DNA of 64,000 nt, taken from assembly GCA_003216815.1 (NCBI GenBank), contig QCIG01000004.1, forward strand, positions 1 through 64,000. The letters are read 5' to 3'. This DNA comes from Prochlorococcus sp. AG-402-K14 (GTDB taxonomy: Bacteria > Cyanobacteriota > Cyanobacteriia > PCC-6307 > Cyanobiaceae). Positions 1-14,219 of the stretch are shown here, piece after piece. The notes under the pieces are model-generated. The model had not been told where the DNA came from, did not search any database, and saw only the letters and a list, made by a program, of their open reading frames with translations. Position numbers and translations under genes: made by a program. The stretch's first letter is position 1, and every line of letters starts with the position of its first letter.

Positions 1-196
1 TGTAAATCTATCCGGGGCTCTTGGCATAAAATGCAAAACAATACTTAACCAAAAATCAGCATCTAGATGGGAGTTCGCAAAAAATGACCTATTTTACTAT
101 TGGTTCCCAACAGTGAAATTATTCAGATCCGATAACGATGAAAGCTTGAATAAGAATTTAAAAATCATCAAAAATGAACTTCAAGATTTTTGTTGA
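1..196 (+). CDS. C-terminal fragment of a TPR/glycosyltransferase-like protein (partial, cut by window edge)
   Basis: An open frame runs in from the left edge (frame beginning at base 2) and stops with TGA at 194-196, giving 64 residues. The segment SGALGIKC at the start and WFPTVKLFRSD about 30 residues later resemble the end of the glycosyltransferase family 9/O-GlcNAc-transferase-like domain that follows TPR repeats in many marine bacterial proteins (typically AGALG...WYPTMRLFRQ). The start and most of the gene lie outside the window, so function is inferred from this tail only. Confidence 0.55.
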   Translation, partial: VNLSGALGIKCKTILNQKSASRWEFAKNDLFYYWFPTVKLFRSDNDESLNKNLKIIKNELQDFC

Positions 197-826
197 TTTA
201 AAAAGTCTTAGATTTTAATTATAAAAGATATATATTCTACAAAAATATTACATACTTAATAAACTATTAATCAATAGCATGAATGTCAAACATTAACTAC
301 ATTGAATAGATATAAAGATTTGATATTAAATTTTTTCTATATATCGAAAGACTCAATGAATTTGTACTCTTAAAATACTTAGGAATACGTACAAAAAAAC
401 ATCTTAAATAATTTATAATAAGATTCGAAAATATTCCATCATGACTACATATCATCTATATTTTTTATATAGCATAAAAGAGATAGCTTTATAAACTCAG
501 AGAAAAACAGGAAGAAGAGAAACAGAGTTCCTAGCCATGGAAATCCTTGTTTAGATTTAGAAAGGTCTTCTTTTTTTAGCTTCAAAGGGAAAGACATTGT
601 TTTAGTTATCTCCTTCATCGAAGAAGATAACTAAAACAATGTCTATTCTAAAATTATACAATTAAAAATTTATTAGAATAAAACACTACTTTACTTATTA
701 TCGAACAATATCCAAAATTTTTACCACCGATCTAAGTGCAAAGTTTCTTTAGGATATTGCTTATAATTGATTTAAATCATATATTGAAAAAAGCAATTTC
801 AACCGAATTTACAGAATTATTAATTT
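197..826. other. Gene-free AT-rich stretch
   Basis: About 630 bases without a credible gene. The only structure I see is the long hairpin at 592-644, listed separately. The rest is low-complexity A/T sequence with stops in all frames. Confidence 0.6.
592..644. repeat. Long inverted repeat (25-bp stem, 3-base loop)
   Basis: The left arm AGACATTGTTTTAGTTATC (592-610) is the exact reverse complement of 626-644. The next six bases on each side (611-616 and 620-625) pair with one mismatch, closing on loop ATC at 617-619. No T-run follows on either strand, so it is not a textbook intrinsic terminator. It could be a terminator for the gene on the left, a small-RNA hairpin or a cruciform. Confidence 0.85.
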
Positions 827-1402
827 ATGGAAAATTTTATTTGCAAATTTAAAAAAAGTCTGTCCAATGAAAAATGTAAGGATCTTATCGATCTGTTTAA
901 AAAAGATGAATTAAAAAAAAAGATCAGGAAAGGTCCTATAAACGAATATACAAAAGTAAATAATACTTATTTCTATGAATTTTTTTCAATGAAGGTAACT
1001 GAGGCCATAATCAAAGAACTTGAGAAACCAATTACATTATATTTAAATAAGTTTAAATTTTTATCAGAAAAATCCTTAAAAATTGAAGAATACTGCAATC
1101 TCCAAAAATATATACCAGGCAATTCTTATACCAAAGAACATTGTGAAAATTCAGGAGAACCTAATCATCTTAGAAACTTGGCATGGATGTTTTATTTAAA
1201 TGACATAAATGATGAAGGAGGTACATTTTTTCCAAGTCAAAACTTAACCTTAACTCCCCATGCTGGTGATCTATACATTTGGCCTGCTTATTGGACACAT
1301 TCACATAGAGGAATTCCTTCAAAAACAGAAGAAAAATTTATTCTTACGGGTTGGTGTAGATTTTTAAGTCAGAAGGAGAAAGATCAGATGAAAAATGTTT
1401 AA
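827..1402 (+). CDS. 2-oxoglutarate/Fe(II)-dependent oxygenase, prolyl-4-hydroxylase-like
   Basis: The 191-residue protein matches the double-stranded beta-helix 2OG-Fe(II) oxygenases common in marine cyanobacteria and cyanophages. Visible features are the first metal motif H105-x-E107 (Glu in place of the usual Asp), the strand segment GGTFFP (131-136), the turn HAGDLYIWPA (145-154), the distal histidine in THSHRG (H160 most likely) and a basic residue near 170 (EEKF) that would bind 2-oxoglutarate. The substrate cannot be told; relatives hydroxylate peptidyl proline or other side chains. It stands alone, with over 400 gene-free bases before it and a gene-poor kilobase after it, next to a glycosyltransferase-like gene. 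This is an accessory context that may reflect transfer. Confidence 0.8.
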   Translation: MENFICKFKKSLSNEKCKDLIDLFKKDELKKKIRKGPINEYTKVNNTYFYEFFSMKVTEAIIKELEKPITLYLNKFKFLSEKSLKIEEYCNLQKYIPGNSYTKEHCENSGEPNHLRNLAWMFYLNDINDEGGTFFPSQNLTLTPHAGDLYIWPAYWTHSHRGIPSKTEEKFILTGWCRFLSQKEKDQMKNV

Positions 1403-1518
1403 GAATCAGCATCGATATATATAGTAAATTCATTCTCTAAACTTTAAAGGAGGCGAAATATTCATAGAAAGAACTAATATTAAATATTTTCTGTTAGAGG
1501 TAACAAATGAAAAGAGAG

Positions 1519-1674
1519 TTAAATAAGCTTTTCTTTGTTATTTGCTATGGAAGGGAATTTATTATCTATCTCATCTCTAAAACATGCCAAAGCAGCTTCT
1601 GAGAAAATCTCCCGAATCTTCCAATTAACTTCATGAGATGGGGTTGTTTTTCTTGATTTTGATGAGTCCTGCAT
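1519..1674 (-). CDS. Small hypothetical protein, 51 aa
   Basis: ATG at 1674 to TAA at 1519. The protein begins MQDSSKSRKTTPS, then HEVNWKIREIFSEAALACF, and ends NNKEKLI. It is soluble, charged and probably helical in the middle. Amino-acid use looks protein-like (Trp, Cys, balanced charges) and not like translated A/T noise, which is why I call it. No family is recognised and no strong ribosome binding site is seen. It is isolated in a gene-poor region. Confidence 0.5.
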   Translation of the reverse strand: MQDSSKSRKTTPSHEVNWKIREIFSEAALACFRDEIDNKFPSIANNKEKLI

Positions 1675-1859
1675 CAATTCTGATATTTTTTTCAATAGAA
1701 CAAAATTTAATTACTTTTTCAAGAGTTGTCTAAACAAGATCATTCATAACAAAAATTAATATAGAGAAATCATCCAGATTGTTTAAAAAAAAATTCATAC
1801 AGACATTCCCATTCAAGGTAAATAGCTCTCTTTAATGAGTTAGCTGTACATAACGATAC

Positions 1860-2080
1860 TTTTCCACATTTTTTTGTTTTCCTCATATTACGAAAAGTTT
1901 TGTCCTGGATTTTTAACAAGAACTTTTTAATGTATCAAGAGATACTAAACACCTGAAAGCTGTTGCAACAACTATGATTTACGGACACAGAGTTTTTTTT
2001 GTAATTTATCCACTTATTCAATTGACATCATCCCTATTGAGATTTTTTGAAAATCATGAATTCTGTGGAAAAGTGGAAAA
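1860..2080. other. Cluster of DnaA-box-like sites beside an A/T-rich tract
   Basis: Exact TTTTCCACA at 1860-1868; TTATCCACT (one mismatch from TTATCCACA) at 2006-2014; TGTGGAAAA at 2064-2072 (TTTTCCACA on the minus strand); AGTGGAAAA at 2072-2080 (one mismatch). An A/T-rich, T-run-containing stretch follows at about 2085-2200. Four sites in 221 bases of non-coding DNA resemble an origin or a DnaA-titration site. There is no dnaA or dnaN gene nearby, and one exact TTTTCCACA also occurs alone at 14194-14202. Confidence 0.4.
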
Positions 2081-2248
2081 CTAGTCTTAAAAGTCAGTAA
2101 AATCTATTTTTTTTTGTTCTATCAAATCAAAAGAAATCATTCCAAAATATCATTTTTTTTTAATCTTAAAATGAAAAACAATTCAAGCCGAAATGCAACT
2201 ATAGCTAGCCCATATAGCCTTTATAGCTTGAGGGAATTTCTTTTTCTT

Positions 2249-2343
2249 CTACTTCTTAGTCAATAGCTCTCGTTCCGTTTCAGGAGCATCAATTGTTTTC
2301 AAACTCAATACCTCTACAATTTCATTACCTAAAAATTTTTCAT
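2249..2343 (-). pseudogene. Possible frameshifted small ORF
   Basis: From ATG at 2343 the frame stops after four codons. In the shifted frame the DNA reads as a plausible peptide, KFLGNEIVEVLSLKTIDAPE followed by TERELLTKK and TAG at 2249-2251. The stretch is 95 bases, one short of 32 codons. Adding one A in the A-run just after the ATG would give an intact 31-residue ORF. Either a one-base deletion broke a small gene, or the resemblance is accidental. Confidence 0.35.
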
Positions 2344-2502
2344 ATTAAATTTCTTTCGTAATTTTTATTTATTGTCAAAGAGAAAAATCAAGATCTAAAT
2401 TCAATTATTTATGTTGAAAGTAAGTTTTAATAAAATAAGATGAATTAATTTATTTTGCTAACATTAAACCTATTAAAAAACAACTAGTGTCATAGTGTTT
2501 TA

Positions 2503-2724
2503 ATGCATAATCCTTTCTCGATTTATTGGAATAAAGATTGGACTTTTCAAATAGTACATATGGAAGGTGGGATTTATTTAGAGGCAAAAGGACTGGGAAT
2601 ACTTATAAGAAAACCTTTCTTACCAAATGAATGCCTTCTAACTGCTGCTGATGATTTAGTTTATGAAGAAGATAAAAATCGAAAATCTTTATTCAAATCT
2701 TGGAAGTCGACAAAAATTTTCTAG
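2503..2724 (+). CDS. Conserved-looking small hypothetical protein, 73 aa
   Basis: ATG start with no close competitor. The protein begins MHNPFSIYWNKDWTF and has a beta-rich middle (QIVHMEGGIYLEAKG, then LGILIRKPF) and an acidic/basic tail. There is no signal peptide or membrane segment. It faces lexA tail to tail, with 24 bases between the stops. No family is recognised. Composition and balanced residues support a real gene. Confidence 0.6.
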   Translation: MHNPFSIYWNKDWTFQIVHMEGGIYLEAKGLGILIRKPFLPNECLLTAADDLVYEEDKNRKSLFKSWKSTKIF

Positions 2725-2748
2725 TTTTTAATTTCTTTAAGAAAAACA

Positions 2749-3357
2749 TTAAGTTTGCCTCCAAACAGCCGCTAGCTTGCCTTGTACATGAACTTGTTCA
2801 GCATCTATTTCTATAGGTTCATAAGCTGGATTAGCTGCTTCTAAACGAACTAAACTTCCGTCACGAAAGAAATGTTTCAAAGTAGTCCCTAAGCCTGGAA
2901 CCATTGCGCTTACAACAGTTCCATTTCTTAAGCAAGAAGGGTCAATAACAGGTTCCATCAAGACCATATCTCCATCTGCGATATAAGAGTCAATCATTGA
3001 ATCTCCATTTACCGTCAAAGCAAATAGTCCTTTCAATTGAAGAACTGAATTAAAATCGAGAGTTTCTTGTACGTCATCAAAAGTTTCAACTAGTCCTCCT
3101 GCTGCTATTGCACCTAAAACAGGAACACCAGAGATGCTTTCTTCAATTAATTGAAGTGTTCTCGCCTGACCTTCTTGCCATTTTATCCAACCTTTTTCTT
3201 GTAAATGTCTTAAACGGCTTTGAATCGGTGCTGGAGATCTCAGGCCCATCGCTTGCATCATCTGCCTTATTGAAGGGCTATGATGTTGATCTTCGATAAA
3301 ATCAACAAGCCAGTCATAGAGTTCTTGCTGAGCTGTAGTTAAAGCTTCTCCGGGCAT
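2749..3357 (-). CDS. lexA: LexA-family repressor/autopeptidase
   Basis: SOS-type transcriptional repressor. An N-terminal winged-helix DNA-binding domain (about the first 65 residues, with SPSIRQMMQAMGL) is followed by an S24 peptidase domain. In the frame counted from the upstream TTG, the self-cleavage site is Ala89-Gly90 (GAIAAGG), the nucleophile Ser123 (GDSMID) and the general base Lys164 (TTLKHF); all are present, so it should be RecA-cleavable. The ATG at 3357 is preferred because it gives the usual LexA length (202 aa); a TTG at 3366 would add three residues. A palindromic operator-like element lies just upstream, which suggests autoregulation. Confidence 0.93.
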   Translation of the reverse strand: MPGEALTTAQQELYDWLVDFIEDQHHSPSIRQMMQAMGLRSPAPIQSRLRHLQEKGWIKWQEGQARTLQLIEESISGVPVLGAIAAGGLVETFDDVQETLDFNSVLQLKGLFALTVNGDSMIDSYIADGDMVLMEPVIDPSCLRNGTVVSAMVPGLGTTLKHFFRDGSLVRLEAANPAYEPIEIDAEQVHVQGKLAAVWRQT

Positions 3358-3369
3358 TCGAATCAATTA

Positions 3370-3399
3370 AGTACATATGTCCTTCAATACATATGTACC
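3370..3399. promoter_or_regulatory. Probable LexA operator upstream of lexA
   Basis: GTACATATGT (3371-3380) and ACATATGTAC (3389-3398) form a perfect 10-bp inverted repeat with an 8-base spacer, starting 13 bases upstream of the lexA ATG. Both arms resemble the cyanobacterial SOS-box pattern RGTACNNNDGTWCB: AGTACATATGTCC at 3370-3382 and ATACATATGTACC at 3387-3399 each differ at one position. LexA autoregulation is inferred. It could also fold as an RNA hairpin in the leader. Confidence 0.6.
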
Positions 3400-3422
3400 T
3401 AATTCTTGACAGCATTGCAACC

Positions 3423-4379
3423 CTAAAGTCCTCCCAGTTGAACAGCAAGTAAGGCTTGCTGAACATGCAGACGGTTCTCAGCTTGTTCAAAAACATAGCT
3501 ATTTTTACTCTCAATAGCCTCTTCTGTGATTTCTTCTCCTCTATGAGCAGGTAAACAATGCAATATAATTACATCTTTGTCGGCAAGATCTATTAATTTT
3601 TGATCAACCTTGTATTGTTCAAATATTTCTTTTCTCTTGTTATATTCTTCTTCTTGCCCCATTGAAGCCCAAACGTCTGTGTAAATCACCTGAGAGCCTT
3701 TTATTGCCTTCAAAGGGTCATTAAAAATAGAAATGTTTGAACCAAATTCAGAAAGAGATCTCGCCTTTTCTATGACATCAGAGGCTGCCTCAAAACCTTT
3801 TGGAGAGCAAACCCTTACGTTAACGCCCAACATTGCTCCGCAAATCATCAATGAATTCGCGACATTATTACCATCTCCAATATAAGAAAGATTTATACCT
3901 TTAAGCGTCCCAAATTTCTCCTGAATAGTGAGATAATCCGCAAGAGCCTGACACGGATGCTCATGATCAGTTAAAGCATTAATCACAGGGATATCAGACC
4001 ACATAGCATATTCTTCTAGCTCTTGTTGAGAAAAAGTTCGAATTGCAAGGGCATCGCAGTAGCGACTCAAAACCCTTGCTGTATCTTTAATAGGTTCCCC
4101 TCTTCCTAGCTGTGTAACTTGAGGATTCAAATCAACAGTTTGACCTCCAAGTCTTGCCATAGCGACTTGAAAACTAACCCTTGTCCTTGTAGAAGCTTTT
4201 TTGAAAATTAAGCCAAGAACTCTATTCCCAAGATCAATTCTTCTGTTTCCTCCTTTCAACTGTTTTGCTAATTCAAATAAAGATAAAATTTGATTGCTAT
4301 TTAAATCAGCTGAAGAAAGAAAATTAGTTTTACTAAAAGGACTTAATTTAGAAGCTAAGCCTAATGATGCTGAAGCCAT
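3423..4379 (-). CDS. argF: Ornithine carbamoyltransferase
   Basis: Joins ornithine and carbamoyl phosphate to make citrulline in arginine synthesis. The 318-residue length is standard. The carbamoyl-phosphate loop STRTR (63-67), HPCQ (141-144), the ornithine loop DVWASMG (235-241) and HCLP (274-277) with the catalytic Cys275 are all intact. ATG start. It follows ftsH on the same strand with 54 bases between, which contain a perfect hairpin (4393-4419). argD in the same window acts two steps earlier in the pathway. Confidence 0.97.
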   Translation of the reverse strand: MASASLGLASKLSPFSKTNFLSSADLNSNQILSLFELAKQLKGGNRRIDLGNRVLGLIFKKASTRTRVSFQVAMARLGGQTVDLNPQVTQLGRGEPIKDTARVLSRYCDALAIRTFSQQELEEYAMWSDIPVINALTDHEHPCQALADYLTIQEKFGTLKGINLSYIGDGNNVANSLMICGAMLGVNVRVCSPKGFEAASDVIEKARSLSEFGSNISIFNDPLKAIKGSQVIYTDVWASMGQEEEYNKRKEIFEQYKVDQKLIDLADKDVIILHCLPAHRGEEITEEAIESKNSYVFEQAENRLHVQQALLAVQLGGL

Positions 4380-4392
4380 AAGAAAGCCTCAA

Positions 4393-4419
4393 ATATCCTT
4401 TATCGTGGATAAAGGATAT
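4393..4419 (-). terminator. Hairpin between ftsH and argF
   Basis: ATATCCTTTATC (4393-4404) pairs perfectly with 4408-4419 around loop GTG. On the minus strand it lies after the ftsH stop and 13 bases before the argF start, followed only by TTTGAGG. It is therefore a weak terminator or a leader hairpin controlling argF. Confidence 0.5.
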
Positions 4420-4433
4420 AAAAGTCAAGTGTT

Positions 4434-6308
4434 TTAATTTAAAACTTTTTCGGGCAAAACACTGCTTGATAACATTTCTTTAAGCTCATCCCCCTCTATT
4501 ACTTCTTTCTCGAGGATCTTTTGAGAAATATCTTCTAATAAAGAGAGATTATTTTTAAGAATATTTAATGCATTTTCATGCCCATCATCTACCAAACTTC
4601 TAACTTCTTTATCAATTGCCTGAGCGGTAGCATCACTTAGTTCCCTTCTAGGATTGTTATTGCCACCGAGGAATTGACCACCTCCTTGCTTGTCATAAGC
4701 CAAAGGTCCCAAAATATCGCTCATGCCATAAGTCCCTACCATTTGTTCGGCAAGATCAGTAGCTCTTTGAAGGTCATTTGAGGCTCCTGTTGTGATTTTT
4801 CCAAAAATTATCTCTTCAGCAGATCTGCCTCCTAGAAGCGTAGCTATTTGTCCTTGTAACTCTTCTTTGGAATTTAAGAATCTTTCCTCTGTAGGTAATT
4901 GAAGGGTATAGCCCAATGCACTCATCCCTCTTGGAACTATAGAAATTTTTGCAACTTTGCTTCCTCCAGGCATTAGATGACCAACTATTGCATGACCAAC
5001 TTCATGATAAGCAACTATCTTTTTCTCATCGTCTTGTAAAACTCTGCTTTTTTTCTCTAGTCCGGCAACTACTCTTTCAATGGCTTCATTTAAATCTTTT
5101 TGTTCTACTTCAGATCGTTTTCCTCTTGCCGCAAGCAAAGCTGCCTCATTAACCATATTTGCTAAATCTGCTCCCGCAAATCCACTAGTAGCCTGAGCAA
5201 TTCTCTCTAAATCAATATTTTTTGAAAGCTTGACTTTTTTTGTATAGATCTCAAGGATAGTTTTTCTTCCTGATAAATCAGGTCTATCAACTAAAACCTG
5301 TCTGTCAAATCTACCTGGACGTAATAAAGCAGCATCTAAAACTTCAGGTTGGTTGGTAGCAGCAAGTACAATTACTGGTTTATCAGTTGAGGCAAAACCA
5401 TCCATTTCCGTAAGAAGCTGATTGAGGGTTTGCTCTCTCTCATCATTTCCTCCTACTACACCCATTGATCCAGAGCGACTTTTACCTATAGCGTCAAGCT
5501 CATCAATGAAAATAATGCAAGGTGCTTTTTTCTTGGCTTGTTCAAATAAATCTCTAACTCTTGCTGCACCAGCACCAACAAATAACTCGACAAATTCAGA
5601 TCCAGAAATTATAAAGAAAGGTACTTCAGCTTCACCAGCTACAGCTTTAGAAAGAAGTGTTTTGCCAGTTCCTGGAGGTCCAACTAATAAAACCCCTTTA
5701 GGTATCCTTGCTCCGATATCAGTATATCTTTGTGGCTTTTTGAGGAAATCAACTATTTCGGTTAGTTCGTCTTTTGCCTCATCAACTCCTGCGACATCAT
5801 CGAAAGTTACTTTAGATTCATCATCAGGTACATAAACTTTTGCTTTGCTTTTAGTGAAACTAAGTGCTCCTTGAGCTCCACCTCCACCCATGCTTCTGCG
5901 AGCAAAAAATTGAAGAACGAGAATAAAAATTAATGGTGGTACAACCCAACTCAGAATTGTTGTAAAGATATTTGGTTTCTTAGGAGGAGCAGCTGCAAAT
6001 TCTACGCCTTTATTTTCCAATCTTTGTGGCAAATCCATGTCAAAAATTGGAGTAGTAGCTAGAACAGATGGAGCTCCTTCCTCTGTTGATGACAATTCAT
6101 ATCTGATTTGATCTTGAGTAATGTATGCACGTTTAACTTCGCCATCATTAACTTGATTTATAAAAAGTGAATAAGGAACTCTGGGAACCTGCATATTCTG
6201 ACTAGGAAAGAAGCTACTAAAGAGAAGAAGAGCTCCAAAACCTATTAGAACTAAATTAATTATTCCAAAACGTCTGTTAGGTTGATTTTCGTCCTGTCGT
6301 ATTGGCAT
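4434..6308 (-). CDS. ftsH: ATP-dependent zinc metalloprotease FtsH
   Basis: Membrane-anchored AAA+ protease for quality control of thylakoid/plasma-membrane proteins. Two N-terminal membrane segments (about 17-37 and 119-138) bracket a lumenal or periplasmic domain. The AAA module has Walker A GPPGTGKT (about 212-219), Walker [12 protein letters not shown] (about 267-277) and the RPGRFDR second region of homology. The zinc site HEVGH is near 437-441. The ATG at 6308 is preferred over the TTG at 6314, giving 624 aa. Cyanobacteria carry several FtsH paralogues; the sequence seems closer to the FtsH1/3/4 types than to FtsH2, but I cannot assign which. Confidence 0.95.
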
Positions 6309-14177: not shown

Positions 14178-14219
14178 ATTGTTTTCAGAATCATTTTCCA
14201 CAATAAAATTTAAATACAT

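Follow-up and report, generated by a model that had tools for sequence, protein, structure and literature searches.

A conserved four-site DnaA-box cluster outside the origin of Prochlorococcus as a putative DnaA control locus

Is a DnaA-box cluster in non-coding DNA of Prochlorococcus sp. AG-402-K14 a replication origin, a DnaA-binding site outside the origin or a site with another function? The cluster lies in a 64,000-nucleotide stretch of contig QCIG01000004.1 (hereafter the window), and an earlier note had read it as either an unannotated origin element or a DnaA-titration site. The source assembly consists of 64 contigs and is 85% complete. Its dnaN gene is located on another contig, and no dnaA gene is found in the assembly above the family cut-off, consistent with the note's remark that neither gene is nearby.

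Arrangement and conservation of the box sites

The element spans 221 bases from the left box to the right outer box and sits between two short ORFs at positions 1519-1695 (minus strand) and 2503-2724 (plus strand), neither of which matches a Pfam family (Table 1). Its main motif, TTTTCCACA, is described in passages of PMC4674748 as the DnaA box of most cyanobacteria. The two exact and two one-mismatch boxes that the earlier note had listed within 221 non-coding bases are all found at their positions. The list had overlooked the middle box, TTATCCACT, which is far better conserved than the listed site at 1877. The right inner and outer boxes form a 17-base tandem with a one-base overlap (TTTTCCACTTTTCCACA on the minus strand).

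Table 1. Features of the element in the window
Feature	Position	Strand	Conservation and remarks
Whole element, DnaA-box cluster in non-coding DNA	1860..2080	.	Core of the stretch conserved in the genus; box architecture kept in other genera
Left DnaA box, TTTTCCACA	1860..1868	+	Exact in 33/33 genus loci with the pair, 9/9 g11 loci and 21/21 rows of alignment A2
Weak box-like site, TTTTCCTCA, one mismatch	1877..1885	+	Partly conserved within the genus, not between genera
Spacer palindrome, GTATCAAGAGATAC	1932..1945	.	GTATC-n4-GATAC-like in 30/34 genus rows of alignment A1
Middle DnaA box, TTATCCACT (TAATCCACT in many relatives)	2006..2014	+	Pairwise identity of 0.95 at 2004-2017, 33 loci
Right inner DnaA box, TTTTCCACA	2064..2072	-	Invariant in 33/33 loci
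Right outer DnaA box, TTTTCCACT, one mismatch	2072..2080	-	Shares one base with the inner box

Across the whole window, 33 sites match TTTTCCACA with at most one mismatch, compared with a mean of 34.6 in shuffled sequences. Because this number is at the chance level, only the clustering is unusual, as the earlier note had argued. None of 300 windows simulated with a second-order Markov model contained at least four sites, including at least two exact ones, inside 221 bases; two exact sites within 221 bases and any cluster of four were each observed in one of the 300. The cluster is confirmed as real, with support beyond a mere motif match.

The intergenic DNA, used as a query, matches 35 of the 41 genomes of the genus (g1), its own genome counted. 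Several of these genomes align only at query positions 453-680 (window positions 1855-2082), which correspond to the box cluster. An exact left box and an exact right pair, offset by 200-205 bases, are present in 33 of the 35 genus loci examined. The element is also present in L051 (G035), where the tandem differs by a single base; the 35th locus, L052 (G033), is not the element, and none was found in the G033 assembly (76% complete). In the 33 loci, the pairwise identity is 1.00 for the left box, 0.95 for the middle box and 1.00 for the right tandem, compared with approximately 0.70 for the spacers and 0.48 and 0.42 for the flanks. The A/T-rich, T-run-rich tract that the earlier note had pointed out on the right is present but is not conserved, with a mean pairwise identity of 0.42 versus 1.0 for the boxes.

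The tandem TGTGGAAAWGTGGAAAA occurs in one copy each in 34 of the 41 genus genomes. These include every one of the 20 genomes with a completeness of 87% or more, and the seven genomes without it are 54-86% complete. In a search of 400 family genomes, the tandem was found in 47 and its reversed control in none. The element is shown to be normally single copy and non-coding.

Distribution outside the genus

A sequence-only profile built from 34 loci (R1) was run on 300 family genomes with an E-value threshold of 0.01. It matches 36 genomes, 13 of which lie outside the genus, and 12 of these 13 matches cover nearly the full length. At two weak partial matches, G018:C18 (L123) and G106:C2 (L114), none of the genes used as queries gave a match.

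In genus g11, the tandem occurs in 9 of 14 genomes, and the five genomes without it are 54-82% complete. In an alignment of the nine g11 loci, nearly invariant runs of at least six columns are restricted to the left box, CCACTTAT and both tandem halves. The left-to-right offset is 199-202 bases in 9/9 loci. The middle box is retained as CCACTTAT, 59-60 bases ahead of the right tandem, compared with 60 in the window. The right inner box is present in all nine loci, where it reads TTTTCCACA or is preceded by one changed tandem base. The spacer palindrome GTATCAAGAGATAC, to which a second protein may bind, is not seen in this nine-locus alignment. The comparison among strains that the earlier note had proposed as a check therefore yields boxes and spacing conserved both within and between genera, which strongly strengthens the half of its reading that concerned a DnaA site outside the origin.

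The complementarity of the left and right boxes and the small inverted repeats in the spacer would fit a non-coding RNA gene. This interpretation is very improbable. The covariation term is 0.09, 11 of the 21 predicted pairs are the inverted boxes themselves, and 5 of the 21 show changes on both sides in one or more sequences. The spacer is gone in g11, and Rfam gives no match in window positions 1-5000 except sub-threshold ones at 589-647. The RNA gene was rejected on the Rfam result and the near-nil covariation. Separately, a long perfect inverted repeat (GACATTGTTTTAGTTATCT ... AGATAACTAAAACAATGTC) is located at window positions 594-643, to the left of a 2OG-Fe(II) oxygenase gene, and Rfam assigns only sub-threshold microRNA matches to it.

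In genus g4, loci L112 and L113 keep the left and right boxes and lack the middle box. The g4 genome G099 contains two candidate copies, L112 and L115, in different gene contexts, one of them without the middle box; a duplication or a stray contig is a possible source of this pair. A broader profile (R2), run on 40 relatives, gives one strong match, in G043. Among the R2 matches listed, the best of the weak ones has an E-value of 5.7e-5 (G083), and inspection of the boxes at ten weaker loci (L201-L210) revealed the architecture in none.

Genus g18 is taken here, from genome size and composition, to be high-light Prochlorococcus, and the low-light and high-light labels of the other numbered genomes are likewise our assumption. 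The two-box pattern with a gap of 175-205 bases occurs in none of 45 sampled relatives from 16 genera (12 genomes from g18), which are high-light-type and Synechococcus-type genomes; its reversed control gave one match (G212) among the same 45. Among the 400 family genomes, no listed g18 genome contains the tandem. This absence from the sampled high-light-type and Synechococcus-type genomes indicates that the element is not generally needed, a point against the control locus proposed below.

The left-right pattern was also found in at least 39 stretches of GTDB contigs, of which 33 are titled Prochlorococcus and 6 come from unrelated bacteria. The count is a lower bound, as complete carriers such as G002-G007 and G050 are absent from the titles of this list. 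R1 matches 31 of the 33 listed Prochlorococcus stretches (all except L126 and L139) and one of the six others, weakly (L132, E-value of 0.12). A wide spread of the element was rejected on these listed stretches. A phage origin was also rejected, given that the single IMG/VR match to the pattern (L199) fails profile R1.

Position relative to dnaN and to neighbouring genes

The element and dnaN are 509-539 kb apart in six g1 genomes (G002-G007), which corresponds to 26-28% of the chromosome. The distance is approximately 53% in G050 and G104 and approximately 34% in G043, and is thus constant within g1 and different between genera. An effect of position-dependent dosage was rejected on this pattern.

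Skew was sampled at about one fifth of each genome; the G003 sample consists of 20 segments, each 20 kb long. In G003, GC and T/A skew switch sign at dnaN, with a noisy GC skew elsewhere. The T/A skew turns back at 0.31-0.38 Mb, and the element lies mid-arm at 0.80 Mb. The G050 record begins at dnaN, and its T/A skew turns at 0.83-0.90 Mb, with a noisier GC skew; the element is located at 0.92 Mb.

The DNA upstream of dnaN carries exact TTTTCCACA boxes in g1, g11 and g4, with two to three in six g1 loci, two in two g11 loci, one in g4 and none in one g18 locus. The boxes of this region are followed by CTA repeats, and CTACTACT is invariant in 10 of 10 aligned loci. On the other strand, the repeats read TAG TAG, the DnaA-trio layout for origin unwinding according to excerpts of PMC8287927. 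Three consecutive CTA or TAG triplets occur in none of the 34 A1 rows or 21 A2 rows of element copies, and profile R1 matches none of five dnaN-upstream loci. As for the other initiation gene, seven dnaA loci (L030-L036) contain no exact TTTTCCACA, in agreement with passages of PMC4674748 that report Prochlorococcus to be without a DnaA box near dnaA.

By these criteria, the proposal of an unannotated origin element is not supported and was rejected. The skew changes sign at dnaN in G003, the trios stand upstream of dnaN and in no aligned element copy, dnaN is 509-539 kb away, and the A/T-rich tract is not conserved. A second or accessory origin, as DnaA boxes in an A/T-rich neighbourhood might suggest, is extremely improbable on the same grounds and because the G050 element adjoins the T/A skew turn opposite dnaN. 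Of the two observations that the earlier note had named as counting against it, a skew that places the origin elsewhere was made, and a lack of box conservation was not.

The dnaN-linked origins also bear on which protein may bind the boxes. In G080, an ORF judged by eye to be dnaN-like has the 17-mer tandem and the adjacent CTACTACTACTA in its upstream DNA, and this location next to CTA repeats links the tandem to DnaA. A different DNA-binding protein, with the TTTTCCAC core in common with DnaA, could account for the conservation of the middle site beyond the 9-mer (ATTnATCCACTTATnnnnTTG) and for the conserved spacer palindrome of g1. Such a protein is nevertheless quite improbable as the owner of the sites, since relatives carry both the 9-mer and the 17-mer tandem next to dnaN at their origins.

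The genes around the element change between genera. In g1, the element has lexA to its right in 16 of the 18 loci tested, and the other two loci end too soon. In g11, it is flanked by a small ORF and by mfd (identified by Pfam TRCF, DEAD and UvrB_inter), both of which end at the element in 6/6 loci with enough context. The G043 element is near a homologue of the g11 small ORF. In G003, homologues of this ORF (408 kb) and the element (804 kb) are 395 kb apart, and four g1 loci with such homologues contain neither mfd nor an exact box. The element is thus shown not to be tied to one neighbouring gene. The neighbours changed while the boxes stayed, which disfavours a shared role as the promoter of one gene, as do the convergent gene ends in g11.

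A related alternative is that DnaA bound to the element controls an unannotated short transcript or the small ORFs on either side (1519-1695 and 2503-2724). In its favour, the two short ORFs of g1 have their starts facing the element, and a homologue of the left one adjoins L115, a g4 copy. This alternative is distinctly unlikely in view of the g11 gene ends described above. In addition, the right-hand small ORF is absent from five of the g1 loci examined (L042, L045, L046, L048 and L049), and promoter-like matches number 8, compared with 7.3 expected by chance.

A putative DnaA control locus and other box sites

The element comprises four box sites (left and middle on the plus strand and the right tandem with both boxes on the minus strand) at a near-fixed spacing, and these are shown to be conserved far beyond their surroundings in several low-light-type genera. 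We infer, with a probability of roughly 60%, that the element binds DnaA and acts as a control locus of the chromosome away from the origin, in the manner of datA and the DnaA-box clusters of Bacillus and Streptomyces. Its probable role is to help time the copying of the chromosome.

DnaA would bind at the left box, the middle box and the tandem, and the bound molecules would meet across the bent or looped spacer of approximately 200 bases. A single nucleoprotein complex is suggested because the spacing is near-rigid across otherwise free DNA. The complex would keep DnaA from oriC, most simply by titration, and might also favour ATP hydrolysis by DnaA. Replication of the locus would double its dose and thereby help to prevent early re-initiation.

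Titration is ranked before a nucleotide switch because the DnaA protein of Synechococcus elongatus opens its origin in vitro about as well with ADP as with ATP (excerpts of PMC8287927). The same observation bears on a locus similar to DARS, at which the DnaA complex would promote ADP release and so reactivate DnaA. A fixed arrangement of three to four boxes and independence from neighbouring genes would suit such a locus as well. It is unlikely nonetheless, since a cyanobacterial DnaA that opens the origin with ADP (PMC8287927, in part) has less need for reactivation.

For the preferred control locus, modelling excerpted from PMC9640692 indicates that titration alone produces stable cycles at low growth rates and fails with overlapping replication rounds. 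We draw from this that low-growth-rate titration would fit an organism that grows slowly and in step with the day. A set of four or five boxes may not suffice to titrate DnaA through its number alone. Each Prochlorococcus-type genome searched contains 20-36 exact TTTTCCACA sites anyway, about as many as the reversed control, and any special effect must therefore come from the arrangement. The variable distance from dnaN between genera, the lack of an IHF consensus in the genus and the two g4 copies without the middle box count against a control locus.

Known loci outside oriC that lower or raise active DnaA include datA, DARS1 and DARS2 of Escherichia coli (passages of PMC4585315, also for the following E. 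coli comparisons). Like the element, datA is a non-coding DnaA-box cluster outside oriC. The spacing between key datA boxes matters, and that of the element is conserved in 33/33 genus and 9/9 g11 loci. The box layouts differ, however, and datA requires an IHF site, whereas the E. coli IHF consensus WATCAANNNNTTR has no exact match between the boxes in 34/34 genus rows and occurs in 1 of 21 A2 rows. DARS1 and DARS2 are also non-coding and have a three-box core, and DARS2 requires IHF and Fis. The E. coli loci keep their position relative to oriC; the position of the element differs between genera. For Bacillus subtilis and Streptomyces coelicolor, a citing paper (PMC10950094) describes DnaA-box clusters that are likened to datA and reported to repress untimely initiation. 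The dnaN-linked oriC of the same organisms as the element shares the TTTTCCACA boxes and, in G080, the identical 17-mer tandem, but adjoins dnaN, has CTACTACT and marks the skew turn, none of which applies to the element.

DnaA-box clusters outside oriC are thus already known, and the element differs in its layout, lack of an IHF consensus and changing position. Among open-licence publications on Prochlorococcus or cyanobacterial DnaA sites, the titles and abstract beginnings describe no such element. Passages of a study published in 2010 on the high-light strain PCC9511 (PMC2921402) state that no seqA, dam or hda homologue was identified and invoke a DnaA threshold. A more specific version of the control locus is tentative and, taken as a whole, doubtful. 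In this version, an independently evolved, IHF-site-free DnaA regulator with a rigid four-box scaffold would be retained in low-light-type lineages and lacking in the sampled high-light-type genomes. It would stand in for the SeqA/Hda-type control that is reported missing and help set the single daily S phase, at varied chromosome positions including one near the terminus.

A conserved non-origin DnaA scaffold would offer a defined 221-base target for studying how Prochlorococcus confines replication to one daily window. It would also be a natural example in which a putative DnaA control site moved to other chromosome positions and other neighbours with its geometry intact. Genome G050, a carrier of the element, is presumably that of strain SS120. 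SS120 began replication 1-2 h earlier than MED4 (PMC2921402, in part), and the presence of the element may therefore be worth relating to replication timing.

Two further sites with exact boxes were observed. A second conserved box pair consists of TTTTCCACA and its reverse complement, 44-45 bases apart, and is located in L053 at 1509-1561 (G003:C1:930408-930460) and also in L054-L057, L170, L171 and L172. It adjoins a DUF2811 gene (Pfam), near a DUF1818 gene and an rpoZ-like ORF. The pair is not exact in G104 or G049; it is exact in G001-G005, G050, G043 and G057 (g18), a wider spread than that of the element. A lone exact box is found at window positions 14194-14202, between ribF- and thiE-like genes. 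The earlier note had placed this site correctly and took it as a sign that isolated matches can arise by chance. It has counterparts 12.25-12.34 kb beyond the left box in five genomes (G001, G002, G003, G004 and G005) and is therefore probably not a chance match.
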